From NCBI GenBank assembly GCA_913041495.1, contig CAJWHT010000021.1, positions 1-44,529 on the forward strand: 44,529 bases of DNA, written 5' to 3'. This document shows positions 1,755 to 43,325 of the stretch, in pieces (the first letter of the stretch is position 1; each line of letters opens with the position of its first letter). The DNA comes from an uncultured Desulfobacteraceae bacterium (GTDB taxonomy: Bacteria > Desulfobacterota > Desulfobacteria > Desulfobacterales > Desulfobacteraceae). The notes under the pieces are model-generated. The model was given only the letters and a program-made list of their open reading frames with translations, was not told where the DNA came from and did not search any database. Both the position numbers and the translations under genes were made by a program.

Positions 1755-1757
1755 GGT

Positions 1758-3473: not shown

Positions 3474-3496
3474 TTAAACGGCTCCTGAGCGTTAAA

Positions 3497-3793: not shown

Positions 3794-3808
3794 GGGATTC
3801 TCCTAAGC

Positions 3809-4306: not shown

Positions 4307-4309
4307 GGA

Positions 4310-4723
4310 TTATTTCCCTCCTTCATCGATGGCGTAGTTGAGGATGGTCATCTTCCTCAACAGCATCTCAATGGTAGATCTGTACTTCACGTTATTCTCC
4401 ATCAGGTGCATCATCTCCGTATCGATATTCACGGAGTCCAGATGGTGGATATCCACATCTTCACTTTCTTCTCCCTTTACCTCATAAGGCCCCACACCGT
4501 AGTTGGGAGACAGGTGTTTTTCATGGGTCTTGTCCACGTAATCCGGTTCCGGTCCTTCCATGGCCCGGGATAATGCGGCCTGGAAATCAATATCCTTAGG
4601 CGTGTACCCGATGGTATCCATATTGGCGATGTTGCCTGCAATCAGATTATGGCGTTTGGCTGAGATATCCAGGGTTTTGGATATCATTTGACTTGTCCGG
4701 CCGTAAATCCGTGAATCAATCAT
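4310..4723 (-). CDS. flgB: Flagellar basal-body rod protein FlgB
   Basis: FlgB is a proximal rod subunit and the first gene of the visible flgB-flgC-fliE-fliF-fliG-fliH operon. The 137 residues include the rod N-terminal signature (LDISAKRHNLIAGNIANMDT) and the C-terminal pairing helix (MHLMENNVKYRSTIEMLLRK). A purine-rich AAAGGGAG lies about 12 bases before the ATG. A well-formed -24/-12 promoter lies about 110 bases upstream, so the whole rod/MS-ring/switch operon is probably sigma-54 dependent. Confidence 0.96.
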   Translation of the reverse strand: MIDSRIYGRTSQMISKTLDISAKRHNLIAGNIANMDTIGYTPKDIDFQAALSRAMEGPEPDYVDKTHEKHLSPNYGVGPYEVKGEESEDVDIHHLDSVNIDTEMMHLMENNVKYRSTIEMLLRKMTILNYAIDEGGK

Positions 4724-4831
4724 CTTTCTGCATCTCCCTTTGGGTTGTCTCTAAGCGCTCTATCACCCGTGTAAGCTTCATACCCGGGCCAACAGTTGAC
4801 ACCAGTTGGAAAATCAATCAGAAAGAGGTAA

Positions 4832-4847
4832 TGCAATTCACATGCCG
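4832..4847 (-). promoter_or_regulatory. Sigma-54 (-24/-12) promoter of the flgB operon
   Basis: The minus strand reads CGGCATGTGAATTGCA, which fits TGGCAYRNNNNTTGCW at all but the first base and has the obligatory GG-N10-GC spacing. It starts 10 bases beyond the stop codon of the adjacent activator gene and points at flgB. The start site should fall near 4820, giving a leader of about 100 bases. Confidence 0.85.
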
Positions 4848-4856
4848 GATTTTAAT

Positions 4857-28834: not shown

Positions 28835-30598
28835 CTATTTCATCTCAATATGTGAGACACATTCTGTCGCATCAGGGTTTTCACGGGCATGGGACTCATA
28901 GGTCCATCCGTCCCACACATTTTCAATGATCTGCTCCAGCAGGGGATGGACCAGGTTTTCCGCCTGCTTGCCGTAAAGCAGGTCGATATGGTTGGCCCCC
29001 TCAATGATGAAATCAATGAGCTGGCTTTTTTCCGGAAGGATCTCCACCTTGCGCAGATCATCCACATGTTCCAGACGGTAAACCTTCTTGTATTTATGGG
29101 GATAAAACCGGCTGTAGCGGACATTGTGCAGCGGGGCAAGGCAGTCTTTGGCACCCCAGAAATGAAACAAGGGGATATCCTTGGGAAAAAATGAGTAATG
29201 GTGGGTGTAGTTCAGTTCGGATCTGTCCATCCGTTTAAAACCGTTTCCGTCATACACCGCCTTGAGAAACTGGAACCCCAGCCCCAGGGGAATGGACTCG
29301 GTGGCCACTTCCAGGTAACGCTCCACAAAATGCTTGTCCCCCTTGTGGTTTTCCGGGCAGATCAGGAAGTTCAGGCCGCCCACGTCCCGGTTGTAGATGG
29401 AACGGGAAACGGTCTTCACCAAGGGCAGACGGGTGACCAGCATGGCCGCTTCCTGGATGGGGATATGGGAAAACCTGAAAATCCGGGCCAGGTGGTTCAA
29501 CCACAGGGCCGAGGGGAAAAAGACATGGGAGTTCCTGTCAAAGCGCCGGGGTGACCCTAAAGAGACAATGCCCTTAACGGTTTTCATGGACGCCTTTGCC
29601 ACGGATTCCGGCGGCAGCACCCGGTCCAGCTCCCGTTTCCGTTTCTCCGGCATTTTAAGTTTGTCAAAATCCTGTCTCAAAGCCCAGTTCAGGACCATGT
29701 TTTCCGACACCAGCCCGCCCATGCTGTGTCCCACAAGAATGGAAGGCTTGCCGCAGCTTCTCTGGGTAATAAAGTTCAGCACTGTTGGCAGATCGTGGTC
29801 GATCAGGGTATCCACGGTGTAGTTGGGGTCAAAGCGGCCGCCGTTGACACCCACCCCCCGGGGATCGAACAGATATGTCCAGTTTTTATTGTCTGCCAGA
29901 TTTTTGGCAATGGAGTAGCGGTTGCTCATGTCCCAGCAGTAGGAATTGTTGGCAAAACCGGGAACCAGAATCACCGAAGGGTTGCTGTCTCCGGCTGTGA
30001 CCCCTTCCATTTCCAGAAGCCGCCGGAACTTTATGGATTTCCCTTTTTCAGTGAAATCCTGGTAGTAGACGATCTCATAATCCCCACGGCCGTTTTGCTC
30101 CCGCTCATCCACTTCGCTTTCAAAATAGGCGGGCTGGCGTGCCGATTTGAGGGCCTCTTTCACGATGTTGCGGCGGAAGGCTTCACTGTAGATGTCTTCC
30201 GTGTACTTGGCATCGATATTCAGCCGTTCCTCGGTAATCCGCGTCAGGCTGGAGCGCTCCAGAAGAATTATCTCCTCGGTGAGTCTGATCTCACCGTTTT
30301 CAAGCTCTTCGAAAAGGATATTTTTGATGACGTCCCTGGGAATGACGATCCGGGCCACCCGGGAGAAGATGTGATAGAGGGTCAGGGCAAGTTTGCCCAC
30401 GGCCTTTTTCCGGATCTCCTCTCTGGAAACGATGAGTTCCGGGGCCACGGGCAGCCCCAGTGAGAGCTGCCCCTTGTAAATTTTGCTGTAGGTATCATAT
30501 CCCAGATTGATAATCTGGGTAGGAATTTCGTTTACTGCCAGCCGGACGGCGGACTGCCTCAATCGGCCAAGGGATGTCACAAATGTCATTGTCGCCAC
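28835..30598 (-). CDS. Alpha/beta hydrolase (lipase/esterase-like), lipid locus
   Basis: The 587 residues start at a GTG without clear SD; an ATG at residue 4 is an alternative. The N-terminal ~200 residues are helical and specific to this protein. The hydrolase core begins at VILVPGFANNSYCWDMS, with the nucleophile elbow GHSMGG (Ser292), Asp485 (GAKDCLAP) and His537 (GANHIDLLYG) as triad. PHA synthases have Cys in place of Ser, so this is a hydrolase and not PhaC. It follows the two AAR-like genes by 76 bases. By context it may remobilise wax ester, triacylglycerol or PHA, or act as a thioesterase. Confidence 0.85.
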   Translation of the reverse strand: MATMTFVTSLGRLRQSAVRLAVNEIPTQIINLGYDTYSKIYKGQLSLGLPVAPELIVSREEIRKKAVGKLALTLYHIFSRVARIVIPRDVIKNILFEELENGEIRLTEEIILLERSSLTRITEERLNIDAKYTEDIYSEAFRRNIVKEALKSARQPAYFESEVDEREQNGRGDYEIVYYQDFTEKGKSIKFRRLLEMEGVTAGDSNPSVILVPGFANNSYCWDMSNRYSIAKNLADNKNWTYLFDPRGVGVNGGRFDPNYTVDTLIDHDLPTVLNFITQRSCGKPSILVGHSMGGLVSENMVLNWALRQDFDKLKMPEKRKRELDRVLPPESVAKASMKTVKGIVSLGSPRRFDRNSHVFFPSALWLNHLARIFRFSHIPIQEAAMLVTRLPLVKTVSRSIYNRDVGGLNFLICPENHKGDKHFVERYLEVATESIPLGLGFQFLKAVYDGNGFKRMDRSELNYTHHYSFFPKDIPLFHFWGAKDCLAPLHNVRYSRFYPHKYKKVYRLEHVDDLRKVEILPEKSQLIDFIIEGANHIDLLYGKQAENLVHPLLEQIIENVWDGWTYESHARENPDATECVSHIEMK

Positions 30599-30674
30599 GT
30601 GGTACCAGGGATTTCCATGACAATGAAAATGTCCCGGACATAAAAGTTAACTATCGCCCCGCACTGCTACAGGG

Positions 30675-32735
30675 CTAACTTGCCGCCTTGCCCCGCTGGA
30701 TTTCGGCCTGGGAACGCACCCAGGCAATTTCCTCGCGGCCCAACGGCCCTTCAACACCGGAAATGGCTGACAGCTTCATACCATGCTTGATGCCCAGCTT
30801 GTAAATTTCCTTGACCTTGTCCCATTGGGTTTGACTCCCTTTGGTAAAGGCCTCGAACCGGCCTTCAAGGGTCAGGATAATGGTTTCCGCAAGGCCGGCA
30901 TAGGCCACACCGTGGGGCAGGCCGATATCCTTCATCTCAATGGCCTCACCCGGCAGTTCAATCTCGCCGCCGGTGATCACCAGCACGTCCTGGCGCTTGG
31001 CCACGTCATCCCGGTTAAAGACCATGGGCCGGGTGATGTCCGTCACCACACAGCCGGGTTTGAACCGCATGATATCGATGCTGTCCTTGGCACCGGCACT
31101 GGCAATGACCACCACATCCATGTCATCCAGGTACCGGTCCACCCGCGTGGAGACCGACAGCTTGACATCCGGCCGTTCTTCTTTGAGTTCATCCTGCAAT
31201 GTCAGCAGCTTGGCCATGTTCCGACTAACAATATATACTTCTTCAAAGGCAGTTGCAAGCAGTCTGGAACATATGGCGCCCACATCGCCTGTGGCACCGA
31301 TGACCATGGCTTTGGCCCTCAGGGTCTTGCCGTCTTTTAACGTGACCAGCCCCATCTGCCGGACCGCTTCCGCCGTGGCCCACAATGCGGTGGATGCGGT
31401 ATAGGAATTGCCCGTGGTAATGGGAAGAGGGGCGCTTTTTCCGGTTTCCAGATCCGGTCCCAAAATGCCTTTGGGCATCATGGACACCCCCATGACCTGG
31501 GCCCCCAGCCGCTTGGCCATCTCTGCAGCCTTCAGGACTTTTTTCCGTGTGAATTCAGGGGGATGTTTCTGCATCTCGTCACTGGTCTCGCCGATGCTGA
31601 TCAGCCAGCCCTCGGCTTCAACCCCGGTGGAGGATTTCACCCCCCGCACCTTGGAGTAAACAAAAGGCGGCGTATAGGCCATGGCCTTTTCAATGGCCAG
31701 GATACTTTTGGGAGATACCGATGTGACCATCTCCACGGCCCGCAGCTTTTTAAGCTGGTTCCGGAACAGGGGGTGGATCAGATAGGCAAACCGGTTCACC
31801 CGCTTATCCTGCTCAAAGGGATAGATGATCCTGGGATCAAGCCGTTGTTCGCTGATGATTTCCAAAAGGTCGTCCTTGAGACCGTCTCCCTTGGAGACAT
31901 CCATGGCCCCTACCATGAGCGCTTCGGCCACCACGTCTTCTACAACCTCTGGGATGAGTTTAGGGGTGGTGTCGATGATGGTTTCCACACCCAGCTGGGC
32001 CAGAAGGTCCACCCGGTCTTCATAGGCCGTTGCCGTAATAACGGTTTTTCCGGCCAGTTCCTCTTCCATGCACAGGTCCAGGTACTCATAAAATCCCAGG
32101 TGGGGAATGACCAGGATATTGGCCTTTTTCACGGCATGGCGCAGCAGGTAGCGGTTGGCCGCCCGGGCCGGTTTTTTCATGGGAAAAATTTTGCCCACCG
32201 GCAGCATTTTCAGCAGTTTTTTCGGCCGGCCCGCATAAAATTCGAGTTCCTTGAGGGAGCCCAGCACCGCCGGCACCTGGCTTTCCACCACCGGGTCGGC
32301 AAACATCATATTATCCGTATATTCTGCCATTACCCGGGCCAGGGTGGCATTGGCCACACCGGACATAAACAGCACATTGGCATTGGTGAAATAGTTGTCC
32401 TGCGAAAACTGGATATTTCGGATACTCCAGGCCTGGCTGACCTGGTGCAGGGTTTCACCGGTGGTGACAACGGTATGCAGACGGTCGCACAGTGCCAGAA
32501 GTTCCCGGGTTTTCTTGTGTAAAACCCCTCTGGAGCCCAGGGCGGACGGATACTCGATCCCGCTGATGCACAGGACGTCCGCCCGCTTATTCCACTTGAG
32601 CAGCAGGTCTTCGGCCTTGGTCATGTCCTCGTCGGTGCCGAACCTTTGGATGGAAAACATCTGTCCGCTGAACTCAGCTGTCAGGTCATAATCCTCGCTC
32701 ACCGGTCCCAGACTGATATTGACGATTTTCTTCAT
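30675..32735 (-). CDS. AAR-like fusion reductase, paralogue with Gly in place of catalytic Cys
   Basis: This is a 686-residue protein. The N-terminal ~340 residues (KIVNISLGPVSEDYDLTAEF..., RFGTDEDMTKAE) look like a separate Rossmann-type domain, reminiscent of proteins annotated as quinate 5-dehydrogenase. The C-terminal half matches acyl-ACP reductase: TTGNSYTAS (440-448), nucleotide loop GATGDVG (480-486), IVSRNMAKLLTLQDEL, GGEIELPG and the C-terminal GIKHGMKLSAIS. At the AAR catalytic-Cys position (Cys294 in Synechococcus) it has Gly614 (YAGLAET). It is therefore unlikely to form an acyl-thioester itself and may be a partner subunit of the upstream paralogue, 15 bases away. Confidence 0.8.
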   Translation of the reverse strand: MKKIVNISLGPVSEDYDLTAEFSGQMFSIQRFGTDEDMTKAEDLLLKWNKRADVLCISGIEYPSALGSRGVLHKKTRELLALCDRLHTVVTTGETLHQVSQAWSIRNIQFSQDNYFTNANVLFMSGVANATLARVMAEYTDNMMFADPVVESQVPAVLGSLKELEFYAGRPKKLLKMLPVGKIFPMKKPARAANRYLLRHAVKKANILVIPHLGFYEYLDLCMEEELAGKTVITATAYEDRVDLLAQLGVETIIDTTPKLIPEVVEDVVAEALMVGAMDVSKGDGLKDDLLEIISEQRLDPRIIYPFEQDKRVNRFAYLIHPLFRNQLKKLRAVEMVTSVSPKSILAIEKAMAYTPPFVYSKVRGVKSSTGVEAEGWLISIGETSDEMQKHPPEFTRKKVLKAAEMAKRLGAQVMGVSMMPKGILGPDLETGKSAPLPITTGNSYTASTALWATAEAVRQMGLVTLKDGKTLRAKAMVIGATGDVGAICSRLLATAFEEVYIVSRNMAKLLTLQDELKEERPDVKLSVSTRVDRYLDDMDVVVIASAGAKDSIDIMRFKPGCVVTDITRPMVFNRDDVAKRQDVLVITGGEIELPGEAIEMKDIGLPHGVAYAGLAETIILTLEGRFEAFTKGSQTQWDKVKEIYKLGIKHGMKLSAISGVEGPLGREEIAWVRSQAEIQRGKAAS

Positions 32736-32750
32736 TGTTTACCCACTCCC

Positions 32751-34862
32751 TTAAGCTGTCTCAACGTCTGTTTCAATCTGCGCTTCCACGGTGCCGTCCG
32801 CGGCATTGGCTCCGGCCCTGGCCGCCAGGGCCAGTTCCCGGACCTTCCGAATCTCTTCATCGCTGAAGACACCGTTGACACCGGATATCGCAGCCAGTTT
32901 CATACCGTGCTTGAGACCCATTTTATAAATATCACGGACCTTTTCCCACTCAATGTCCCGGCCGATGGTAAAGACTTCATAGCGCCCCTCCAGGGCCAGT
33001 ACAATGGTTTCCGCCAGGCAGGCGTACACCACTTTCTTGGGCAGGCCGATATTTTTCATTTCCGGGTTGCCGGGCAATTCGATCTCGCCGGATTCGATCA
33101 CCAGGACGTCCGGCCGCTTGGCCACATCCTCCGGGGACAGGTCCAGGGGCCTTGCCACATCGGTGATCACACAGCCCGGCTTTACCTTGGTGATATCCAG
33201 CACCTTTTTGCCCGCCCCGGACGTGGCGGTAACGATCACATCCATATCCGGCAGATACCGGTCCGGTTTTGTGGTGATTTTCAGCTTAACCCCCGGGGTT
33301 TCCTCCAGGATGGCCTGTTGCAGGGCCAAAAGTTTGGCCGTGTTGCGGCCGGCGAGAATCACCTCGTCAAAGGCTTTGGCCAGCAGGCGGCAGCAGACGG
33401 AGCCGATGGCCCCCGATGCCCCCAGCACCATGGTTTTACCGGCGATTTTTTTGCCGCTCTCAATCTCTATCAACCCCATGCGGCGTACCGCATCCGCAGC
33501 CGCCCAGAGTGCACCGGAAGCCGAATAGGAGTTACCTGTGGTAATGGGGATATCCGCCTTTTTGGCCACGGTGAGCCCGGCATCCCCCACCACTTTGGTG
33601 AAGGCCCCAAGCCCCATGATCTGTGCCCCCATGCGCTTGGCCATTCTCGCTGCCTGGAGCAATCGTTTATAGGTGAATTCGGGCGTGTGGGACAGCATCT
33701 GCTTGGGTGTCCCCCCCACTGTAATGAGCCAGCCTTCGGCCTCTGCCCCTGTGGGGGATTTAATTCCGGTTACCTTTGAATACACCCAGGGCGGAGCATA
33801 GGCCACCACCTTTTCCACAGCGTCCAGAAACACCGGCGGCGCAAAGCCGCTGACGAAATCCACCGCCTTGTCTTTCTTTAAAAATTCCTTGGACAGGGGA
33901 TGGATCACAAAGGCAAACCTGTGGACACGTTTTTCTTTTCCGGAGGGGTAAACGATCCTGGGATCCATCCGTTGCATGCTGATAATCTCCAGGATGTCGT
34001 CCGGATGAACCATGTCGGATTTTTTCTCCAGGGCCGCCAGGATAAGTGCTTCGATCACGTTGGGAGAGACCACCCGCTGAAGGATTTTCGGTGTGGTATC
34101 GATGATAACGTCCACCCCGCGGGCCTTGAGAAATTCCACCCGGTCGTCATACACCGTGGACGAAATAATGATTTTGCCGCCGAGTTCTTCAATGGAGGTA
34201 TCCTCGAGAAGACGGTAAAATCCCTGGTTGGGCACCACGATAATATTGGCCTTCTGCATGGCCTTTTTCAGAATGTACTGGTTCCACTTTTTCAGGGGTA
34301 CCACAGAGGAGGTCAGCCGTTTGCCGGGCAGCCAGTCAAGAATTTCATGGGCCCCTTTGGCATATCTTTCAAACCCCTTGAGGGAATGGACCAGCTTTGA
34401 GATATCATTTTCGATCAGGGGATCGGCAAAGGTCAAATTGTCCGTGTATTCTGCCATGACCTTTGCCATGTTGTAATTGTTCAGTCCGGAGAGAAACAGC
34501 ACTTTCTGGTTCTTGAAATAATCCTTGAACTTGTGCTCCACAAACCTTAGGGACCATTCATAGGCCACATCCCTCAAGGCGGCACCGGTGGTGACAGGCG
34601 TCTGGATTTTCCGTCCCAGGCGCTTGATCTTATCGTCATGGCGCCGGGTCAGATACCCGGATGAAATGGCCGGTGGAAACTTGACCTGCCCCACGCCGAT
34701 GGCATCTGCGTTTTTGTCGCTTTCCAGCAGAAGCTGGGCAGCCTTGTCACGGCTGCCGTCCGTTCCGATTCTCTTGACCATGAACTGCTGACCTAAGAAT
34801 TCGGTTTCAAATTCATAGTCGTATTTGCTGGGACCGAGACTGATACTGATTACCTGTTTCAC
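32751..34862 (-). CDS. AAR-like fusion reductase, catalytic Cys retained
   Basis: This 703-residue protein starts at a GTG with GGAGG 5 bases upstream. It has the same two-part build as its downstream paralogue: an N-terminal Rossmann-type domain (SISLGPSKYDYEFETEFLGQ) and a C-terminal acyl-ACP-reductase-like half. Visible are TTGNSYSAS (441-449), GASGAIG (481-487), SGEIELPG and the catalytic-type Cys615 in YACLAETIVLALEG, which aligns with Cys294 in FACFAE of Synechococcus AAR. AAR reduces long-chain acyl-ACP or acyl-CoA to fatty aldehyde with NADPH. Here such a product would feed the alcohol dehydrogenase and wax synthase of the locus. The substrate and the N-terminal domain's role are inferred. 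Confidence 0.82.
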   Translation of the reverse strand: MKQVISISLGPSKYDYEFETEFLGQQFMVKRIGTDGSRDKAAQLLLESDKNADAIGVGQVKFPPAISSGYLTRRHDDKIKRLGRKIQTPVTTGAALRDVAYEWSLRFVEHKFKDYFKNQKVLFLSGLNNYNMAKVMAEYTDNLTFADPLIENDISKLVHSLKGFERYAKGAHEILDWLPGKRLTSSVVPLKKWNQYILKKAMQKANIIVVPNQGFYRLLEDTSIEELGGKIIISSTVYDDRVEFLKARGVDVIIDTTPKILQRVVSPNVIEALILAALEKKSDMVHPDDILEIISMQRMDPRIVYPSGKEKRVHRFAFVIHPLSKEFLKKDKAVDFVSGFAPPVFLDAVEKVVAYAPPWVYSKVTGIKSPTGAEAEGWLITVGGTPKQMLSHTPEFTYKRLLQAARMAKRMGAQIMGLGAFTKVVGDAGLTVAKKADIPITTGNSYSASGALWAAADAVRRMGLIEIESGKKIAGKTMVLGASGAIGSVCCRLLAKAFDEVILAGRNTAKLLALQQAILEETPGVKLKITTKPDRYLPDMDVIVTATSGAGKKVLDITKVKPGCVITDVARPLDLSPEDVAKRPDVLVIESGEIELPGNPEMKNIGLPKKVVYACLAETIVLALEGRYEVFTIGRDIEWEKVRDIYKMGLKHGMKLAAISGVNGVFSDEEIRKVRELALAARAGANAADGTVEAQIETDVETA

Positions 34863-34874
34863 ATTTTCCTCCGA

Positions 34875-35123
34875 TTACCCTTTCCGTACCTTTATCCAAT
34901 CCGTACCGTTATCCTGAATCGCGCTGGCCGGACAGAGGCGAATCATTTCCGCCACCAGCTCCAATTCCCCGTCATTTTCCGGCTGCCTGGCCACGTATTC
35001 ATACCCGTCGTCGTGATTGGTGGAAAATATGGCCGGGACAGCCGCGGCGCACAGGGAACAATTGATGCAGTTATCATCCACAAAAAAACGTCCCTTGCAA
35101 TTATCCGGCAGCTTTTGGGCCAT
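34875..35123 (-). CDS. Single [4Fe-4S]-cluster ferredoxin
   Basis: The ATG at 35123 gives 82 residues; longer forms in this frame overlap the acyltransferase gene and read as its shadow. The cluster ligands are Cys19, Cys22, Cys25 (CINCSLC) and Cys64 (LCPASAI). The position that holds the second-cluster Cys in 2[4Fe-4S] ferredoxins is Val29, so one cluster is expected, as in Desulfovibrio-type ferredoxins. It starts 16 bases after the acyltransferase stop and ends 12 bases before the Cys-type reductase, so it is firmly inside the lipid operon. It may deliver electrons to the reductases. Confidence 0.88.
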   Translation of the reverse strand: MAQKLPDNCKGRFFVDDNCINCSLCAAAVPAIFSTNHDDGYEYVARQPENDGELELVAEMIRLCPASAIQDNGTDWIKVRKG

Positions 35124-35139
35124 GGTTCCTGAAGCCTTC

Positions 35140-36849
35140 TTAATCCGACAAATCCCGCATGATCTGCCGGACATCCCGAAGCAGGCTGTCTTCCTCCTGG
35201 AAGTGCATATGTGCCCGGCAGTAGGGCGTGCCGTCAACGGCATGGTTCCTACAGGGCTTGCCCGCCTTGGTATAGGCCTCACACATGGCGGGTTCTGCCG
35301 CGCCCTTGCCGTTGCCTTTTTCTTTTGTTTTCTTATCCCCCTCGCCGGCCAGGGCTTTTTGAGAAACCTCCTGCGTCTTTGCCTTTTTCTTTGCCTCAAA
35401 TCCGTCGTGCAGCACCAGGGGGCCTTCGTTGATTTTACCGGACTGAACAATATCGATCAGATAGTTGAACTCATCCTCAAACCCTTCAAGGAAGGTTTCC
35501 GGATCAGGCATCAATCCCTTGTCAGAGGCAATGCCGATGGTCACGGAGTTGTTGTAGCTAAAGATGCTGATACCAAGTCCCACAACCCCGGATCTGGGCA
35601 CCCAGAACATGATGTTGGAAATTTCCTTGCCGGCAAAATACAGGGGTTTTCTGGGTCCCGGTACATTTGTCATCACGGCCGAGGCCTTGTTGCCGAAAAA
35701 CTGAGCAGCCTGCTTAGCCACGGTGGACGGGAATACCCCGATGGCCGAGAGCAGCCCGAAGTTCACCCAAGGATCGGCCGAGGTTTTGAGTTTATTCATC
35801 CGCCGCTGCACCTCTTTGAGCCGCAGTATGGGATCTTCCAGGTAAACCGGCAGTTTTAAAAAGACCAGGGAGAACTTGTTGCCCAGTTCAAACTCGGTAC
35901 CCGGTTTTCTGATATTCACCGGCACGGCCACCTTCAGGTCCAGCTCGTTGATCGGGGTATTCTTTGTTTTCAGGTAACGCCGCATGGAACCGGTCACCGT
36001 TGCGATGAGCACATCGTTCAGTGTGGCGGAACTGATGGCCTTGCCCAGTTTCTTGACCCTGTCCAGGGGTATGGGCTCCGTCCAGGTGACCTGTTTGGCC
36101 ACTTTCAGCTTTCCTTTGAACGCGGTGTCAGGATCGGTGCTCATGGCTGTATGCCGCGACAAAACACCTGCGACATCGGAAGGAATACCTGCAACGGTCT
36201 TTAACATACACGTCACGGATTTGGGATTTCGTGCCGCCTTTTCCACCTCCCGGATAATCTTCCGGCTGATTTCCTGGCCTTTTTTCACCTGTTTTCGCGT
36301 GGTGGATATCATGGAATTAAAAGACACCTCCGGAAGCCTTCGGCGCTGACGGTGCTGGGGTTCAACCGCCTTGGGCCAGGGCGCATCCGCTTCCATATCT
36401 GCCGTGGAATGGAGCACGTGCATCAGGGCGATGCCATCGGCGATACAATGGTGAAGCCTGAAAAACAGGGCGCATCCGTCCCCGTAGTTTTCGATCAGGT
36501 GGATATCCCACAGGGGTTTATTCCGGTCAAGTGCCGTGGTCATCAGGTCGGAGACCATGGCGGAAAGTGCGTTTTTATCCCCCGGTGCCGGCAAGGCCAC
36601 CCGGTGAAGGTGGGATGCCAGGTCATAGTGCTTGTCGTCCACCCATTTGGGCAGTCCAAGCCCCGTCAGGGGGCGCACCACCTTCTGACGAAACCTGGGG
36701 AAACTGGCAAGACGGGCCTCCACTGTCGCATACAGACGATTATAATCCAGCGGCTCCTTAAACTCCCAAAACCCGGTAATCACCATCAGATTTACCGGGG
36801 AATCCATTGACAACCAGAAATTATCCGCCTGTGTCATCGTCTCAGACAT
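35140..36849 (-). CDS. Wax-ester synthase/diacylglycerol acyltransferase with zinc-type C-terminal tail
   Basis: WS/DGAT enzymes join acyl-CoA to fatty alcohol or diacylglycerol. The 569 residues have the family start (DNFWLSMDSPVNLMVI), PLWDIHLIE near 112, the catalytic HHxxxDG as H133-H134...D138-G139, and NVPGPRKPLYFAG towards the C-terminus of the acyltransferase. After a Lys/Glu-rich linker (~485-520), residues 523-548 form Cys-x9-Cys-x10-Cys-x3-His, like the small DUF5763-type zinc motif. That tail is unusual in this family. GGAGGT lies 6 bases before the ATG. It is the first gene of the minus-strand lipid operon. Confidence 0.93.
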   Translation of the reverse strand: MSETMTQADNFWLSMDSPVNLMVITGFWEFKEPLDYNRLYATVEARLASFPRFRQKVVRPLTGLGLPKWVDDKHYDLASHLHRVALPAPGDKNALSAMVSDLMTTALDRNKPLWDIHLIENYGDGCALFFRLHHCIADGIALMHVLHSTADMEADAPWPKAVEPQHRQRRRLPEVSFNSMISTTRKQVKKGQEISRKIIREVEKAARNPKSVTCMLKTVAGIPSDVAGVLSRHTAMSTDPDTAFKGKLKVAKQVTWTEPIPLDRVKKLGKAISSATLNDVLIATVTGSMRRYLKTKNTPINELDLKVAVPVNIRKPGTEFELGNKFSLVFLKLPVYLEDPILRLKEVQRRMNKLKTSADPWVNFGLLSAIGVFPSTVAKQAAQFFGNKASAVMTNVPGPRKPLYFAGKEISNIMFWVPRSGVVGLGISIFSYNNSVTIGIASDKGLMPDPETFLEGFEDEFNYLIDIVQSGKINEGPLVLHDGFEAKKKAKTQEVSQKALAGEGDKKTKEKGNGKGAAEPAMCEAYTKAGKPCRNHAVDGTPYCRAHMHFQEEDSLLRDVRQIMRDLSD

Positions 36850-37118
36850 ATGCCACCTCCGGGAAAAGTATTAATAGTAAACGCAACCCTTTTGAATCTA
36901 TTTCCACAATTTGAGCCCCAAAATATGCGTTTCGAAATTATGAACAAATTATAACGAACAGCTCCCTTCATACCGTCTCTTCGAAGAAAAAGTCAACACT
37001 TTGTTTTATGATTGCTAATTTTTTTGAACACCCCCCCGCAGCCATCACAACCCATTTATTTTTAGGCATATTAGATCAGCTGACCTATAAAAAAAATAAA
37101 AAAATTATCAAAAAAAAC

Positions 37119-37147
37119 TTGACACATATAACGCAATGCATCATATT
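37119..37147 (+). promoter_or_regulatory. Sigma-70-type promoter of the phasin/PhaR operon
   Basis: A perfect TTGACA (37119-37124) is followed after 17 bases by CATATT (37142-37147). An A-rich stretch resembling an UP element lies directly upstream. The start site would be near 37154, with a leader of about 68 bases that contains the inverted AACGCA/TGCGTT half-sites. Confidence 0.68.
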
Positions 37148-37175
37148 TGCGTCATGACACACTGCGTTAAATCAG

Positions 37176-37191
37176 CGCATAAAATATGCCA
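37176..37191 (-). promoter_or_regulatory. Possible sigma-54 box towards the wax-synthase operon
   Basis: The minus strand reads TGGCATATTTTATGCG: GG-N10-GC spacing with 14 of 16 consensus positions. It would give a leader of over 300 bases to the acyltransferase gene and overlaps a short inverted repeat, so it may be chance. Confidence 0.3.
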
Positions 37192-37221
37192 TCGGTATTT
37201 ACGATAACCAGGAGGACAAAA

Positions 37222-37776
37222 ATGACTGCAACGAAAAAAGACGACAAAGCTTCAAGATTCTACGTGACGAAAACCATCAGCGACGCCAGGGCCAAGCTTG
37301 AAGACAAGGTCAACACCGCCAACGAAAAGTACATTGAAACGCCGGTAAAGAAAAGCCGCGAATTCATCTCGGAGCTGAAAGCCGACCCTGTAAAAACCAT
37401 TGAGGATCTCATTGACGACGGCAGAGAAGCCATTGAGCGGGAAGCCAACGCCCGGATGGACAGCCTCAAGGAAAAGGTTGAAACCAGAAAGACCAAAATG
37501 CGTGAGCGGCTGGACAAGATCAACCAGGAAACCCGAAAGGTATACGAAGGCATTGAAAAAGATGCCCGCCTTGTTGTGGACGATATGATTGATGCCGGTA
37601 AAAAGCAGCTGGACCGCATTCCGGGTAAAAAGAAAGTTGAAAAAAGGCTTTCTGCCACCCTGAGCGCCATCCCCTCTAAGCTGAACCTGCCGTCCAAGGA
37701 AGAAATCGAAGGCCTTGTGGCCGGGATTAACGGTGTCAGCAAAAAAGTTGACGATCTGAACCGGGATTTTTCATAA
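37222..37776 (+). CDS. Phasin-like granule/lipid-droplet coat protein
   Basis: The start is the ATG at 37222, with AGGAGG upstream, giving 184 residues. The protein is almost entirely charged amphipathic helix (EKYIETPVKKSREFISELKA, DARLVVDDMIDAGKKQLDRI), with no signal peptide or membrane segment. Its C-terminus has an LPSKEEIEGL...VSKKVDDL coiled-coil motif that recurs in the next two proteins. Phasins coat PHA granules, and similar helical proteins coat lipid droplets. The position at the head of an operon with PhaR-domain proteins, and facing a wax synthase, supports a granule-coat role. Which lipid it coats is not shown. Confidence 0.78.
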   Translation: MTATKKDDKASRFYVTKTISDARAKLEDKVNTANEKYIETPVKKSREFISELKADPVKTIEDLIDDGREAIEREANARMDSLKEKVETRKTKMRERLDKINQETRKVYEGIEKDARLVVDDMIDAGKKQLDRIPGKKKVEKRLSATLSAIPSKLNLPSKEEIEGLVAGINGVSKKVDDLNRDFS

Positions 37777-37801
37777 GCTTAATATATAAAAAGGAGGCAC
37801 C

Positions 37802-38308
37802 ATGCTGAAAATTAAAAAATATGCCAACGGCAGGTTCTTCAACACTGAAGAAAAAAAATACATCAAACCTGAAGAAATGGCCGAACTGGTCAAGAAGGGC
37901 ACAGAGATGAAAGTGACCCTGACCAAAACCGGAAAAGACATTACGGAAAAGGTCAAAGCCCAGTTCTCCGAAGAAAAAGCCGCCAAAACCAGCAAAAAGA
38001 CCAAGGCCAAAGCCAAGAAAAAAACTGAGCTTCCGTTCATTAAAACCGATAAACTGGTAAAATGGATCGGTGATACCATTGACCAGAAAATTGAAAAGCT
38101 CATGGATGTTATCAAGCTGCCGTCCCGTGACCAGGTGACCCAGCTCGATCAGAGCATCAAAGAGCTGAACAAGAAGATTGACGAACTGAAAAAAGCCCAG
38201 GAAAAAGCGGCCAAGGAAACCAAGCCCGCTCCTAAAAAATCCGGCACCCCCAGCACAGCGGCAGCAGCGGCTGAGGCTGCAGCCAAGAGCCCTGCACCCA
38301 AGGCCTGA
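37802..38308 (+). CDS. Short PhaR-N-domain protein with coiled coil and Ala/Pro/Lys tail
   Basis: The 168 residues begin with a divergent PHA-synthesis-regulator DNA-binding module (IKKYANGRFFNTEEKKYIKP). A lysine-rich linker, an amphipathic segment (DKLVKWIGDTIDQKIEKLMD), a coiled coil starting LPSRDQVTQL and a low-complexity tail rich in Ala, Pro and Lys follow. The tail resembles the histone-like tails of PhaF-type granule proteins that also bind DNA. A strong AAGGAGG precedes the ATG, 25 bases after the phasin-like gene. It may tether granules to DNA or modify the next regulator; this is inference. Confidence 0.75.
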   Translation: MLKIKKYANGRFFNTEEKKYIKPEEMAELVKKGTEMKVTLTKTGKDITEKVKAQFSEEKAAKTSKKTKAKAKKKTELPFIKTDKLVKWIGDTIDQKIEKLMDVIKLPSRDQVTQLDQSIKELNKKIDELKKAQEKAAKETKPAPKKSGTPSTAAAAAEAAAKSPAPKA

Positions 38309-38336
38309 GTCCCCCGAACATTTGCGACCTTGACAA

Positions 38337-38372
38337 AACCTGCCGGACCATGACTTTATAGTCCGGCAGGTT
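38337..38372 (+). repeat. Perfect 12-bp inverted repeat before the phaR-like gene
   Basis: AACCTGCCGGAC (38337-38348) and GTCCGGCAGGTT (38361-38372) are exact complements around a 12-base loop, 28 bases after the preceding stop. No T-tract follows, so it is either an mRNA-processing hairpin or a protein-binding site. Its arms contain CTGC and GCAG, the elements reported for Paracoccus PhaR sites. Confidence 0.65.
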
Positions 38373-38422
38373 GACGCAGCCCGCCAAAAGCCTAAAAACC
38401 CACGGCCGGCAGGTTTACGCAG
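38363..38422 (+). repeat. 17-bp direct repeat upstream of the phaR-like gene
   Basis: CCGGCAGGTTGACGCAG (38363-38379) recurs as CCGGCAGGTTTACGCAG (38406-38422) with one mismatch and a 43-base period (about four helical turns). The first copy overlaps the right arm of the inverted repeat, and the second ends 26 bases before the phaR-like ATG. An operator for PhaR autoregulation is likely. Confidence 0.6.
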
Positions 38423-38448
38423 GACGGATTTGTTTTGGAGGAGGTAAG

Positions 38449-39078
38449 ATGCACCGGATAAAAAAGTACGCCAACAGGAAACTATACGACACAACGGATA
38501 AGAAGTACGTCTCCAGGAAACGGCTCTCGGAGCTGATCCGCAAAGGCGAGGATATCGTCATCATCGACAATGAAACCGGCGAAGATCTGACCGCCTCCAT
38601 TGTGTCCGGACTCATCGCCGCCAACAGCGGCAAATCAGGCGGCAAAGTTTCCTCCGGCATACTGATTCAGCTTTTCAGAAAGGGCGGAAATGCCGTCACA
38701 GATTACGCCAAGCGCTACGTCTCGCTCTGGCAGAAATCTCTTACCCTGGCCGAAGATGAAATTGACACCATGGTGAAAACCCTGGTGCGGAACAAGGAGC
38801 TGACACGGGCGGAGGGAAACCGGCTCAAAAAGGAAATCCTGGGGTTTACCGCCTCCGTGAAAGACTGGATTTCGGACATCATCGATGCCAGACTCAAGGA
38901 GGTCATCTCTGCGGCCAACCTGGCCTCGAAAGACAATTTTGACGACCTTCACGCCCGCGTCCAGACCCTGGAAGAAAAGCTGGCCTACTACGAACAACTG
39001 CATTCAGAAGAACAAAACACCACGAAGGTGGCGCCCAAAGAAGATGGTGCCACTGAAACGCCCACAGAGAAACCATAG
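38449..39078 (+). CDS. phaR: Polyhydroxyalkanoate-synthesis regulator PhaR-like protein with phasin-like C-terminus
   Basis: The ATG at 38449, behind GGAGGAGGT, gives 209 residues. Residues 1-62 are the PHB-accumulation-regulator DNA-binding domain (HRIKKYANRKLYDTTDKKYV, then LSELIRKGEDIVIIDNETGE). Residues ~85-150 are amphipathic helices typical of phasins (YAKRYVSLWQKSLTLAEDEI). The C-terminus is a coiled coil (LASKDNFDDLHARVQTLEEK) shared with its two neighbours. PhaR represses phasin genes when granules are absent and binds granules when they form. No PHA synthase is in the window, so it may instead sense wax ester or triacylglycerol surfaces. Confidence 0.87.
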   Translation: MHRIKKYANRKLYDTTDKKYVSRKRLSELIRKGEDIVIIDNETGEDLTASIVSGLIAANSGKSGGKVSSGILIQLFRKGGNAVTDYAKRYVSLWQKSLTLAEDEIDTMVKTLVRNKELTRAEGNRLKKEILGFTASVKDWISDIIDARLKEVISAANLASKDNFDDLHARVQTLEEKLAYYEQLHSEEQNTTKVAPKEDGATETPTEKP

Positions 39079-39157
39079 CGCACAATGAAATAAAGCAACC
39101 TAAAAAAACACATACACCGCCAGCCAACCCAACACTTATAATATAAGGATAAGACCC

Positions 39158-40999
39158 ATGCTCCCGGATTATTTTGAGTTTTCCCTTCCCACAAAACTGG
39201 TATACGGCATCGGCATCCTGGACTCCATCCAGGGTGAGGTGGCCGGATTCGGTAAACGCAACGCATTATTGGTCACCGATGAAATCCTTTTAAAAACCGG
39301 GTTGGTGGATAAGGTGAAAGAAGGCCTTCAAAAAACGGACATCCGGGTTGCAGCCGTATTCGACAAGGTCCCCCCCAACTCGGATATCGCAGCGGTAACA
39401 GCCTGTGCCAAAGCAGGAAAGGCGGCCAAGTGCGACATGGTGATCGCCGTGGGCGGGGGCAGCGTAATCGATACGGCCAAAGTGTCCAACCTGATGATGG
39501 TCAAGGGCGGAAAACTTTCAGACCATATGGGCGCCTACCTCCTGGATAAATCAGAGGCGCTTTTGCCCTTCATCGTCATCCCCACAACGGCGGGCACCGG
39601 TTCCGAAGTCACCAAAGTGGCCGTCATCGCAGATCCGGACAACGACGTTAAACTGCCCTTTGCCGAAGATCAGTTCCTGCCCCAGCTGGCCATCCTTGAT
39701 CCCTGGATGACCGTTTCCATGCCCCCGAAGCTTACGGCCTATACCGGCATGGATGCCCTGGTGCATGCCGTAGAAGCCTATGTGGACAAAGAGTGGTCCC
39801 CGGCATCCGACGCCCTGGCCCTCCACGCCATAAAACTGATCACAGAAAACATCCTGATCGCCGCCCACAGCCCGGAGAACCTTGAAGCCAGAGGGGCCAT
39901 GCAGGTGGGCTCATTCCTTGCCGGAGTCGCCTTTTCCCACTCCATGGTGGGGATGGTCCACGGCATCTCCCATGCCCTGGGCGGGGTTTACCATATTCCC
40001 CACGGACTGGCCAACACCCTCATCCTGCCGGAAGTCATGGCATACAACCTGGATGCCCGGGTGGACAGGTACGCCGATGTTGCCCTGGCCATGGGGGTAT
40101 CCTTTCCCACCATCGTCAGCGACAGTCAGAGTGTCATCAAAACAGGCGCCCTGGACCTGGTGTCCAAGGCTGTCAGGAAAACAAGCCTGACCACGTTCAA
40201 ACGCATCGTGGATGAAAAATCCCATAAGGTACGGGATTTTGCCGTCCAAAAATTGTCTAATTTCGGCTTTGTGGACGGATGGATCCGCCGCCAGGCCGCC
40301 CTTGCCGGCATCGAAAAGGTACGTCTGCTCAACCGCCAGCTCGCCTTTCTCACCGCCATGCCCCTGAATCTGAAAGATGCCGGCATTGACGATGAACTGG
40401 ACCGCCTGGACCAGGTGGCCCAAACCGCCATGGAAGACGGTTCCATGCTGTATAACCCGGTGGAACCGGACCCGGAAGCCGTGATGGACATCGTGGAACG
40501 GGTTTATTTTTCAACAGAAATTCCTTTGGAAGTCACCCCGGAGGATCTGAAACCCTCTGGCACCGCCACCTCCAAAACCGACGGCCCGTCCAACGTCTTC
40601 AAGGACAGCGAGATGCTCTGCGACGTGCTGACACAGTTTTACGAAAAACTGAACAACACCCCCGGAATCGGGCCGAACCTGGCCCGGACCAACCTCTGCG
40701 TCCAGTTCAGATACAAAAACCCGGATGCCGTCATCACCATCGACGCCACCGGTGACGACACCCGCATTATTGCAGGAGACTTTGACGGCACACCCGAGGT
40801 GACCATGTCCATGAATGCGGACTTTGCCCACAAGTTCTGGCACGGCAAAGCCAACCTGGTGACGGCCTTGACCCGCCGCCAGGTCAAGGCCAAGGGCAAC
40901 GTACCCAAAACGCTGAAGCTGCTACCCATCCTCAAGCCGGCCTACGACCTGTATCCGGCATTTTTAAGAGAAAAAGGACTGGACGACCTTATCATGTAA
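39158..40999 (+). CDS. Iron-type alcohol dehydrogenase fused to an SCP2 sterol/lipid-carrier domain
   Basis: The 613 residues start with a group III iron-type alcohol dehydrogenase: nucleotide loop GGGSVIDTAK (99-108), TTAGTGSEV, and metal ligands Asp199, His203 (GMDALVHAVEAY), His268 and His282 (VHGISHALGGVYHIPHG), matching FucO spacing. A ~100-residue helical insertion (~320-430) interrupts the C-terminal lobe. Residues ~485-600 are an SCP2-type lipid-binding domain (YKNPDAVITIDATGD, FDGTPEVTMSMNADFAHKFW). A tethered lipid carrier suggests long-chain aldehyde or alcohol substrates, placing it between the AAR-like reductases and the wax synthase. Direction and substrate are inferred. Confidence 0.88.
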   Translation: MLPDYFEFSLPTKLVYGIGILDSIQGEVAGFGKRNALLVTDEILLKTGLVDKVKEGLQKTDIRVAAVFDKVPPNSDIAAVTACAKAGKAAKCDMVIAVGGGSVIDTAKVSNLMMVKGGKLSDHMGAYLLDKSEALLPFIVIPTTAGTGSEVTKVAVIADPDNDVKLPFAEDQFLPQLAILDPWMTVSMPPKLTAYTGMDALVHAVEAYVDKEWSPASDALALHAIKLITENILIAAHSPENLEARGAMQVGSFLAGVAFSHSMVGMVHGISHALGGVYHIPHGLANTLILPEVMAYNLDARVDRYADVALAMGVSFPTIVSDSQSVIKTGALDLVSKAVRKTSLTTFKRIVDEKSHKVRDFAVQKLSNFGFVDGWIRRQAALAGIEKVRLLNRQLAFLTAMPLNLKDAGIDDELDRLDQVAQTAMEDGSMLYNPVEPDPEAVMDIVERVYFSTEIPLEVTPEDLKPSGTATSKTDGPSNVFKDSEMLCDVLTQFYEKLNNTPGIGPNLARTNLCVQFRYKNPDAVITIDATGDDTRIIAGDFDGTPEVTMSMNADFAHKFWHGKANLVTALTRRQVKAKGNVPKTLKLLPILKPAYDLYPAFLREKGLDDLIM

Positions 41000-41010
41000 T
41001 GACGCAAAAC

Positions 41011-41034
41011 GGCCCCGTAACGCCATAAGGGGCC
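41011..41034 (+). repeat. Hairpin after the alcohol dehydrogenase gene
   Basis: GGCCCC (41011-41016) and GGGGCC (41029-41034) form a 6-bp stem with a 12-base loop, 11 bases after the stop. There is no T-tract. It may attenuate read-through into the CoA-transferase gene, which lies 130 bases downstream of the dehydrogenase. Confidence 0.4.
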
Positions 41035-41129
41035 ATAACATATTAACTTATACCCCGCAGACAATCAGGAACCTTCACCACCAACCCTCTTGGTACGTCC
41101 GCGGCACGCAACACAGGGGCAAAAGAATT

Positions 41130-43325
41130 ATGACATCCGAAAAACCTTTATTTTTTACCGACCCGGACGATCTGGCAGAATTCGTAATTGATAAAATGGG
41201 GCTGGATATCAACGTTGGCATGGTCCTGGGCCTGGGAAAGCCCAATCACATCGCCAACGCCCTGTTCAACAAAGCCATGGAAAATCCGGCCATCAATTTG
41301 CAGATCCTTACCGCCATCTCTTTGGAACCGCCCTCCTGGTCCAGCGAACTGGAACGACGTTTCATGCAGCCCTTAGTGGAGCGCATCTGGGAAGGGTATG
41401 TGGACCTGGACTACATTAAAGCGGTCCGGAAACGGGCCCTTCCGCCCAACATTAAGGTCAGCGAATTCTTTTACAAGGCCGGGGGCTTTCTCAACGACGT
41501 CCACATGCAGCAAAACTACATCTCCACCAACTATACCCATGCCAGCAGAGACCTTAAGGCCAACGGCATGAACGTGGTGGCCCAGCTCCTTTCCAAACAG
41601 GACATCAACGGCAAAACCATGTACTCCGCCTCCTGCAACTCAGACACCAGCCTGGACGCCTTCAAGCAGATGAAGGAATACCAGCGCCAGGGCAAGCGGG
41701 CCCTGAATATCGGGCAGATAAACGCCAATCTCCCCTTCATGTACGGGGACGCCGTGGTCCCGCCGGACACCTTTGACGCCATCCTGGAAGGCCCGGAATA
41801 TCATTTCGGCCTGTTCGGCGCCCCCCGGGAATCCGTCAACACCACGGATTATACCATCGGCCTGCACGCCTCCAGCCTGATTCAGGACGGCGGCACCCTC
41901 CAGATCGGCATTGGCTCCCTCGGGGATGCCATTGCCTACGGCCTCAAGATGCGGCATACCCAAAACGACCTGTACAACCAGGCCCTCAAAGATTTCGGTG
42001 TGACGGATAATTTCGGAGATGTGGTCCGGTCGGTGGGCGGCACCGCCCCATTTGAAGAAGGCCTGTATGCCTGCACGGAGATGCTCGTGGACGGATTTCT
42101 CCACCTGTACGACGCCGGTATCATGAAGCGAAAGGTTTACGACAGCATCCCCCTGCAACGCCTGCTCAACGAGGGCAGAATCCGGGTCAACCAGAAGGTG
42201 ACGCCCGAACTCCTGGACCTTCTTCTGGACAACCATGCCATCCATCCCACCCTGACCCGCAAGGATTTTGACTTCCTGCAGGAATTCGGCATTTTTAAAC
42301 AGGAACTTGCCTGGAACAACGGGCAAATCGAAATCAACGGAGAAAGCGTGACCCCGGACCTCAGGGACGTGGCTGTACGGGAGCGCATCAACGACACCTG
42401 CCTGGGCGACAGGCTGGTTGACGGCTACTGGGCCCATGCCGGCTTTTTCCTGGGTCCCAGGGACTTTTACAACGCCCTCAACGCCATGCCGGATGCAGAA
42501 CGGGCCGGTATCAATATGACGTCCGTGCTTCATACCAACCAGCTATACGGCAACAACCCATACGCCAGCGAAGAGCTCAAACTCCTCCAGCGGGGCAAGG
42601 CCAGATTCATCAACGCAGGTCTCATGGTCATGCTCTCCGGTGCCGTGGTATCAGATGGTTTGGAAGACATGCGGGTGGTCTCCGGGGTCGGCGGACAGTA
42701 CAACTTCGTCTCCCAGGCCCACGCCATTGAAGACGCCCGGGGCGCCATCATGATCCGCAGCACCCGGACCAAGGGCAGCGAGACCAGTTCCAACGTGGTT
42801 TTTAATTACGGCCATACCACCATCCCACGGCATCTGCGGGACATCATCATTACGGAATACGGCATCGCCGATCTCATGGGAAAAAGTGACAACCAGGTCA
42901 TCAAAGCCCTCCTGAACGTCACCGATTCAAGATTCCAGGACGGCCTTTTGCAAAAAGCCAAAGCAGTAAAAAAGGTGGAAGCCTCCTACCAGATCCCGGA
43001 CCGCTTCAGGAACAATACCCCCCAGCGCCTGGAGGACACCATGGAAAAATTCAAGGCAAAAGACCTCTTCCCGGTCTTCCCCTTCGGCACTGCCTTCACA
43101 GAAGAAGAAATCGTGATCGGCAAATCCCTGCGCATGTTCAAGGAAAAAATGGCGGACAGCAAACTCGCCGTCGTCCCGGGTCTTCTGGGCCAGATGGTAT
43201 CAGCCCCTCCCGCAGCAGCCCGGCCATACCTGGAGCGCATGAAGCTGGACAACCCGTCCGACCGGAAGGAAAAACTCATGCAGAAAATCGTTCTTACGGC
43301 CCTGAAACAGGCCGGAGAAATTTAA
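41130..43325 (+). CDS. Acetyl-CoA hydrolase/CoA-transferase family protein, long form
   Basis: The 731 residues belong to the acetyl-CoA hydrolase/4-hydroxybutyrate CoA-transferase family. Visible are the CoA-site loop LQIGIGSLGDAIAYGLKMRH, the GGQYNFVSQAHAIEDARGAI region and the C-terminal EYGIADLMGKSDNQVIKALL. Common bacterial forms have about 430-520 residues; the extra length is in the N-terminal ~200 residues and inserts around 290-400. Members move CoA between acids or hydrolyse acyl-CoA. Last in the plus-strand lipid operon, it could activate or release acyl groups, or clear acetyl-CoA. The substrate is not evident. Confidence 0.87.
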   Translation: MTSEKPLFFTDPDDLAEFVIDKMGLDINVGMVLGLGKPNHIANALFNKAMENPAINLQILTAISLEPPSWSSELERRFMQPLVERIWEGYVDLDYIKAVRKRALPPNIKVSEFFYKAGGFLNDVHMQQNYISTNYTHASRDLKANGMNVVAQLLSKQDINGKTMYSASCNSDTSLDAFKQMKEYQRQGKRALNIGQINANLPFMYGDAVVPPDTFDAILEGPEYHFGLFGAPRESVNTTDYTIGLHASSLIQDGGTLQIGIGSLGDAIAYGLKMRHTQNDLYNQALKDFGVTDNFGDVVRSVGGTAPFEEGLYACTEMLVDGFLHLYDAGIMKRKVYDSIPLQRLLNEGRIRVNQKVTPELLDLLLDNHAIHPTLTRKDFDFLQEFGIFKQELAWNNGQIEINGESVTPDLRDVAVRERINDTCLGDRLVDGYWAHAGFFLGPRDFYNALNAMPDAERAGINMTSVLHTNQLYGNNPYASEELKLLQRGKARFINAGLMVMLSGAVVSDGLEDMRVVSGVGGQYNFVSQAHAIEDARGAIMIRSTRTKGSETSSNVVFNYGHTTIPRHLRDIIITEYGIADLMGKSDNQVIKALLNVTDSRFQDGLLQKAKAVKKVEASYQIPDRFRNNTPQRLEDTMEKFKAKDLFPVFPFGTAFTEEEIVIGKSLRMFKEKMADSKLAVVPGLLGQMVSAPPAAARPYLERMKLDNPSDRKEKLMQKIVLTALKQAGEI

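Follow-up and report, generated by a model that had tools for sequence, protein, structure and literature searches.

A conserved divergent locus of Desulfobacterales predicted to store wax esters with a PHA-type coat and regulator

Gene content of the divergent locus

A 44,529-nucleotide stretch of DNA from an uncultured Desulfobacteraceae bacterium (contig CAJWHT010000021.1 of assembly GCA_913041495.1; the whole stretch is termed "the window" below) carries at positions 28835–43325 a divergent locus, in which predicted enzymes of neutral-lipid synthesis lie back to back with proteins resembling the phasins and PhaR regulators of polyhydroxyalkanoate (PHA) granules. The host is probably a sulfate reducer. 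An open reading frame check together with profile scans confirmed the gene content and order given in a preliminary description of this DNA: all ten genes are open reading frames in the order stated.

The minus-strand operon begins with a wax ester synthase/DGAT (WS/DGAT) of 569 residues (35140–36849), which matches PF03007 (143.7 bits), PF06974 and TIGR02946, the last at 379.8 bits and above the family cut-off of 309.95. The active-site motif HHxxxDG is present as HHCIADG at residue 133, and the protein ends in a Cys/His knuckle-like tail (of the type C-x-A-x-T-K-x-G-x-x-C...C-x-x-H) that is found in 25 of 32 cluster members. It is followed by a single-cluster 4Fe-4S ferredoxin of 82 residues (34875–35123; CINCSLC; PF13370, 56.0 bits), whose frame replaces a 191-residue frame overlapping WS/DGAT. 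Next come R1, a predicted fatty acyl reductase of 703 residues that resembles the acyl-ACP reductase AAR and, by alignment with it, has its catalytic cysteine at Cys615 (32751–34862), and R2, a 686-residue paralogue of R1 that has Gly at the catalytic position and retains the NADPH motif (30675–32735). Gaps among these first four genes are only 12–16 bases. The operon closes with an alpha/beta Ser hydrolase (28835–30598), a candidate lipase or esterase, for which S292, D485 and H537 were invariant in 22 of 22 aligned sequences and no PDB relative was found by sequence at an E-value of 0.01.

The plus-strand operon opens with a phasin-like protein (37222–37776), whose PF05597 match of 24.4 bits lies below the family cut-off of 28.8. 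Judged by eye, its start is most likely at 37222, where AGGAGG stands ahead of the ATG, instead of at 37186. Two PhaR-domain proteins follow: PR1 (37802–38308; PF07879, 53.6 bits), which has a weak phasin-like C-terminus (PF05597, 23.8 bits, below the cut-off), and PR2 (38371–39078; PF07879, 70.7 bits), whose start, by inspection, may instead be at 38449. In both, the PHB_acc_N DNA-binding domain (PF07879) exceeds its cut-off of 25, and the matches to the PhaR family TIGR01848 (43.5 bits for PR1 and 58.8 for PR2) fall below the cut-off of 109.45. The last two genes encode an iron-containing alcohol dehydrogenase fused to SCP2 (ADH-SCP2; 39158–40999; PF00465, PF25137 and PF02036), whose SCP2 match is over the cut-off and whose dehydrogenase part has solved structural relatives, and a CoA-transferase/hydrolase family protein (41130–43325; PF13336, 121.4 bits) with relatives that include 4-hydroxybutyrate CoA-transferase. 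Two other loci, L115 and the short piece L037, likewise have the latter gene next to ADH-SCP2.

A cysteine-bearing reductase and its cysteine-less twin

Against the acyl-ACP reductase profile TIGR04058, R1 and R2 scored 79.4 and 60.9 bits, far below the family cut-off of 449.7; these weak matches agree with the "AAR-like" label of the preliminary description. R1 C615 aligns with C294 of AAR (6jzu; position counted by hand), the residue that carries the acyl group in that enzyme; according to the accessible text of PMC7089970, a C294S variant binds stearoyl-CoA without being acylated. R2 has Gly where R1 and AAR have the catalytic Cys, and both proteins of the locus keep the NAD(P) loop GxxGxxG (GASGAIG in R1, GATGDVG in R2). 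The nucleophile for the acyl thioester is thus missing from R2, which makes it no equivalent of R1, and the earlier treatment of the two as equals is not supported.

The catalytic site was compared across 113 aligned rows, which hold 82 Cys, 27 Gly and 2 Ser, with 2 rows cut. In a tree of 112 of these rows (a quick search with SH-aLRT support only, from which the R2 fragment of L034 was left out as too short), R2 forms a single clade of 29 rows with an SH-aLRT of 100. Within this clade, Gly occupies the catalytic site in 27 of the 28 readable rows, the remaining one being Ser (L105), and one further row is unreadable; the other 83 tree rows have Cys, except for a Ser in L108. R2 also differs at other nearly fixed sites, for example F421L and T422P. 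Every locus with an R2-clade row (29 of 29, window included) also holds a Cys-bearing row, although loci were fetched via matches to an R1-led alignment and any with R2 alone could have been missed. Ratios of nonsynonymous to synonymous substitution rates (dN/dS) were 0.04–0.13 for R2 in five pairs and 0.04–0.07 for R1 in four, the fifth R1 pair being saturated. The single clade, the loss of Cys and the low dN/dS together argue that R2 is an old, selected partner, in which acyl-enzyme formation is not expected. The retention of a Cys-less twin next to a catalytic enzyme poses a mechanistic puzzle.

The N-terminal half of R1, approximately 310 residues, matched no Pfam family over its cut-off. 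Aligned with the C-terminal half, it scored 28.3; the best of 100 shuffles reached 26.3, and the C-terminal half in reverse reached 21.3. An internal duplication is only suggested by this weak likeness. Neither R1 nor R2 has a PF00368 match, placing R1 outside the FcrA type.

Conservation of the neighborhood and co-occurrence of its genes

A scan of genome contigs matched at least 530 loci, of which the best 80 were retained as named loci. The order WS/DGAT, ferredoxin, R1, R2, hydrolase recurs in records of Desulfobacula, Desulfamplus, Desulfosudis and other Desulfobacterales, including Ca. Desulfobacula maris (L032) and Desulfamplus magnetovallimortis (L042). Its reappearance in many named Desulfobacterales records indicates that the arrangement is beyond chance. 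In 50 of the 80 named loci, among them loci without WS/DGAT, R1 and a ferredoxin gene are no more than 1 kb apart.

We judged 54 of the 80 loci to have sufficiently long flanks, using thresholds of our own choosing and calling WS/DGAT at 40% identity or more. WS/DGAT was present in 22 of the 24 loci with an R2-clade reductase (exceptions L051 and L052) and in 2 of the 30 without one (L067 and L103). Similarly, a phasin- or PhaR-type gene accompanied all 24 loci with an R2-clade reductase versus 1 of the 30 others, and the hydrolase 20 of 24 versus 6 of 30.

Some relatives carry additional neighbors (for example, L032 and L049): a patatin-like gene in 18 of the 80 loci, an ABC1-kinase-like gene in 16, many at only 21–29% identity, and a gene for a 224-residue protein of no Pfam family in 21. 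None of the three was found in the window. A second type of R1 locus combines a glycerol-kinase-like gene, ferredoxin, R1, a ParA/MipZ-like ATPase and a 129-residue protein, with no local WS/DGAT (L074, L082, L086–L089, L092–L094, L096–L098, L102 and L106). The gene set is incomplete in some of these loci, and a Ser hydrolase lies nearby in some.

Across 145 related genomes, R1 and WS/DGAT were each found in 26; 25 genomes have both, one has each gene alone and 118 have neither (Fisher p 8.6e-26, relatedness uncorrected). In G028, the genome with R1 alone, a fragment of WS/DGAT does stand next to R1 (L034), and G063, the genome with WS/DGAT alone, is 52% complete. Presence and absence of the pair alternate inside the genera g10 and g14, which argues against a single inherited block. 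The earlier proposal of a conserved neighborhood that handles neutral lipid and brings its own coat and regulator is supported by this coupling and by the six WS/DGAT genomes without PhaC_N described below. The expectation that the genes stay together in relatives held in part: by our reading, R1 and WS/DGAT lie within 10 kb on the same contig in 16 of the 25 sharing genomes.

The WS/DGAT matches that adjoin R1 in these relatives score approximately 124–145 bits. In a phylum-wide sample, 12 of the 15 genomes with WS/DGAT but without the R family had a best WS/DGAT match above 150 bits. As its scores are lower than those in most R-less phylum genomes, the R1-linked WS/DGAT looks like a subfamily of its own. 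Two loci (L061:8193-10427 and L107:10866-13136) encode a second, longer WS/DGAT-like protein without HHxxxDG; both also carry a Cys-less reductase.

A promoter element associated with divergent PhaR-type genes

Alignment of six close promoter regions, those of the window and of five other loci, revealed a conserved palindromic block between the operons. In the window, this promoter/operator element spans 37118–37172 (no strand assigned) and comprises a PhaR-type box, CGCAATGCA, at 37132–37140 (a predicted site), a second, degenerate box, and an overlapping TTGACA (-35)/CATATT (-10) promoter. A matrix built from the six regions scored 80.3 in the window, compared with a maximum of -21.9 in ten letter shuffles. 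At a threshold of >5, it recovered 22 loci besides the window, five of them used in building the matrix. In 21 of the 22, the element precedes the phasin-like gene or, if no phasin was found, PR1 (L039). This position 5' of the phasin-like gene holds even where WS/DGAT is not adjacent; L033 is cut at the contig end.

The window's box, CGCAATGCA, fits the PhaR cores TGCRNYGCASMA and NYGCRNYGCRN given in the accessible portions of PMC6201568 and PMC12542648. A longer pattern, allowing up to two mismatches, found 39 sites in 31 of the 145 genomes, one of them in the host genome, and its reversed control found 0. YGCRNYGCR was matched by 38 of the 39 sites, and at a position that the search pattern had left free, the purine of the PhaR motif was present in 39 of 39. 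Among the 23 matrix elements, the first box follows the strict motif in all 23, and the second follows it in 7, or in 21 when relaxed. By itself, the box shows no enrichment across the window (4 matches versus 10.2 expected), so the weight of the PhaR-box evidence rests on the longer element. The palindromes CTGC..GCAG, TGCA..TGCA and TTGC..GCAA were absent from 16 of the 18 promoter regions.

Overall, 16 of the 39 element sites have a WS/DGAT domain no more than 1 kb away, and 31 have a PhaR-type gene no more than 3 kb away. In all 31 cases this gene belongs to a divergent type, which we separated from canonical PhaR at 86 bits in PF07879, a boundary set after the scores had been seen. Borderline matches of 84.9–85.9 bits occur in G105, G122:C34 and G123, and the one in G122:C34 has the element beside it. 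Divergent PhaR has the element within 3.5 kb for 45 of 57 genes, compared with 0 of 44 canonical genes. It is present in 25 of the 26 WS/DGAT genomes (24 if G123 is counted as canonical), and the element in 23 of the 26. Four genomes (G011, G107, G121 and G126) have divergent PhaR-type genes and neither a WS/DGAT nor a PhaC_N match.

Patchy distribution of the locus

The upstream part of the window (741–6236) encodes flagellar proteins (FliG, FliF, basal-body rod) together with a response regulator of the sigma-54 type. Contamination is unlikely as the source of the contig: the FliF on it is nearest to those of the same-genus genomes G011 (89%) and G008 (85%) among 98 genomes searched. G011 keeps phasin-PR1-PR2 and the element but lacks WS/DGAT upstream of them; the contig is just 3140 bases long. 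In G020 (L113, 8430–8730), a piece of the hydrolase (residues 483–541) lies directly beside phasin-PR1-PR2-patatin and looks like a scar from deletion of the minus-strand operon. These remnants suggest that loss of an older locus could explain part of the patchiness; a gain of the locus is also conceivable.

A proposed wax-ester store and its alternatives

We consider it probable that the locus encodes an anaerobic storage system for wax ester, possibly mixed with triacylglycerol, in which a PHA-type coat and regulator have been repurposed. The proposed enzyme activities, product, granule binding, repression and sensing are predictions drawn from sequence and its conservation. R1 would take an acyl thioester onto Cys615 and reduce it with NADPH to a fatty aldehyde, with the ferredoxin as its putative redox partner. 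R2 may serve as a dedicated non-acylating partner of R1, as a scaffold or channel, or possibly as an aldehyde-reducing half. ADH-SCP2 would convert the aldehyde to an alcohol, its SCP2 domain holding the chain, and WS/DGAT would join the alcohol to acyl-CoA. The presence of a reductase suggests wax ester rather than triacylglycerol. The phasin-like protein would coat the lipid body, and the Ser hydrolase may mobilize the stored lipid. Finally, the PhaR-like PR1 and PR2 would repress the divergent promoter via the PhaR-type box until drawn onto the lipid surface. The preliminary description had proposed a complete route from acyl thioester to wax ester. Genes for R1, ADH-SCP2 and WS/DGAT are indeed present; R2 is not equivalent to R1, and no fatty-acid-activating ligase was identified in 14 loci (the ten locus genes and scanned flanks, with the window's open reading frames scanned in part).

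Several observations weigh against this interpretation. R1 and the WS/DGAT catalytic domain lie on separate contigs in 9 of the 25 sharing genomes, where the expected linkage was not seen, and both R2 and a nearby WS/DGAT are missing from 28 of the 54 named loci that could be assessed. Neither R1 nor WS/DGAT was found in any of 18 same-genus relatives. Across the phylum-wide sample of 395 genomes, WS/DGAT occurs in 17 (15 over the cut-off) and the R family in 3; only two genomes have both, so most WS/DGATs of the phylum do without R1, and one R-family genome (G220) has no WS/DGAT match. For eight of the 39 element sites, the contig carries no gene of PhaR type. The 86-bit boundary was post hoc, and of the 36 genomes with divergent PhaR, 11 have no WS/DGAT, so that this part of the system is not confined to wax. 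The host further encodes a protein of the HMGR family, to which the known reductase FcrA belongs (PF00368 is matched in 3 of the 26 R1 carriers, host G000 included). Since PF07993 matched 14 of 14 controls, it was uninformative as a test for FarA and AcrB, and the carriers may possess either enzyme. Lastly, the host genome encodes a class III phaC on contig C41 (428 bits) and, on C39, a canonical-type PhaR (93.9 bits), and its phasin-like and PR proteins could therefore serve PHA. The earlier argument that no PHA synthase is visible thus fails for the host, even though PhaC has no match on the window's own contig.

Indeed, the phasin-like and PR proteins might belong to PHA granules, their place beside WS/DGAT being historical, an explanation we regard as unlikely but worth keeping in view. 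It is favored by PhaC_N matches in the host and 19 others of the 26 WS/DGAT genomes, and by divergent PR genes without WS/DGAT in G011, G020 and G077, with phaC in the latter two. Six WS/DGAT genomes lack PhaC_N (G034, G035, G054, G060, G061 and G066); all of them keep divergent PR and the element, and none has canonical PhaR. In four of the six (G034, G035, G061 and G066), which are 94–98% complete, class III PhaC is likewise without a match; G054 and G060, at 69% and 72% completeness, have such matches below the cut-off only. Across all relatives, divergent PhaR is accompanied by PhaC_N in 26 of 36 genomes and occurs without it in 10. The canonical type, with 44 genes in 43 genomes, occurs only with PhaC (43 of 43) and, as noted above, never with the element. 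The six genomes without PhaC_N and the contrast with canonical PhaR speak against the PHA-granule explanation.

Another explanation holds that the product is mainly triacylglycerol, with WS/DGAT acting as a DGAT and R1, R2 and ADH-SCP2 in a side pathway. WS/DGAT enzymes are commonly bifunctional, which lends this some plausibility, but R1 tracks WS/DGAT genome by genome, a coupling that DGAT activity alone would not need, and no Kennedy-pathway gene was found among the ten locus genes scanned. We judge it improbable that triacylglycerol dominates. The chance seems slim that the reductases instead feed the synthesis of alkyl ether lipids. Such lipids occur in some sulfate reducers, and the second locus type, where R1 stands beside a glycerol-kinase-like and/or ParA-like gene without a local WS/DGAT, would suit them; yet, with the G028 fragment included, WS/DGAT accompanies R1 in every R1 genome among the 145 relatives, and members of the Cys-less R2 clade are mostly found beside it. 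Still less probable is a catabolic locus for the uptake and oxidation of waxes, alcohols or aldehydes. The Ser hydrolase, iron-containing dehydrogenase and CoA-transferase could run degradatively, but WS/DGAT, an R1 with its acylation Cys, and the coat and regulator would point to synthesis and storage. That R2 is a decaying duplicate without a role, as its loss of the catalytic Cys and its somewhat faster evolution than R1 in most tested pairs might suggest, was rejected on its single clade of one origin and its low dN/dS, besides the near-fixed Gly and the kept NADPH motif.

Comparison with known systems

According to the available text of PMC10351704 (2023), accumulation of wax ester or triacylglycerol is unreported in Deltaproteobacteria, whose gene neighborhoods could not be analyzed there. 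The same text describes a betaproteobacterial scaffold with WS/DGAT that carries a putative phasin gene, which provides a precedent for a phasin near WS/DGAT. In the open-access literature that we searched, no paper joined wax ester and phasin in Desulfo- taxa and none dealt with Desulfobacula wax ester. If sulfate reducers used wax as an electron sink, this would bear on how carbon is stored in sediments.

The wax pathways built on FarA, AcrB or FcrA, as presented in the accessible part of PMC11948995, resemble the locus in pairing WS/DGAT with a fatty acyl reductase, and R1 belongs to another family. The three reductases are reported there in 1%, 31% and 26%, respectively, of sampled WS/DGAT bacteria, a large share of which have none of them. 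R1 is a concrete candidate for the reductase of one WS/DGAT lineage not accounted for by FarA, AcrB or FcrA. AAR (TIGR04058; PDB 6JZQ/6JZU/6JZY/6JZZ) is similar to the C-terminal half of R1 over approximately 300 residues, a stretch that takes in both the NAD(P) loop and the Cys of the catalytic site. Unlike AAR, R1 has an additional N-terminal half of some 310 residues, a score below the family cut-off, a Cys-less partner and a ferredoxin in its operon. The best-scoring relative of R1 and R2, and their best PDB match, is the N-terminal region of PigE from the prodigiosin pathway (4ppm; NF053554, 183 and 123 bits); the match is limited to that part of PigE and lies far below the cut-off of 850, and the pathway is different.

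The PhaP/PhaR system of PHA granules shares with the locus the PHB_acc_N domain, a phasin-like protein and YGCRNYGCR at the phasin promoter. Unlike PhaP/PhaR, the proteins of the locus are tied to WS/DGAT and to a distinct element and are kept where no PhaC match exists, and the canonical-type PhaR of the host is encoded separately. Taken together, the chances appear evenly balanced that this is an undescribed wax system of Desulfobacterales, combining a new type of reductase (perhaps two fused AAR-like halves), its Cys-less twin and a ferredoxin, which would furnish the wax alcohols anaerobically, with a PHA-type coat and sensor that has its own operator. If so, a sensing circuit for biopolymer granules would have moved to a liquid-lipid store, and should PR1 and PR2 sense wax bodies, proteins of PhaR type would be general surface sensors and not specific to PHA.

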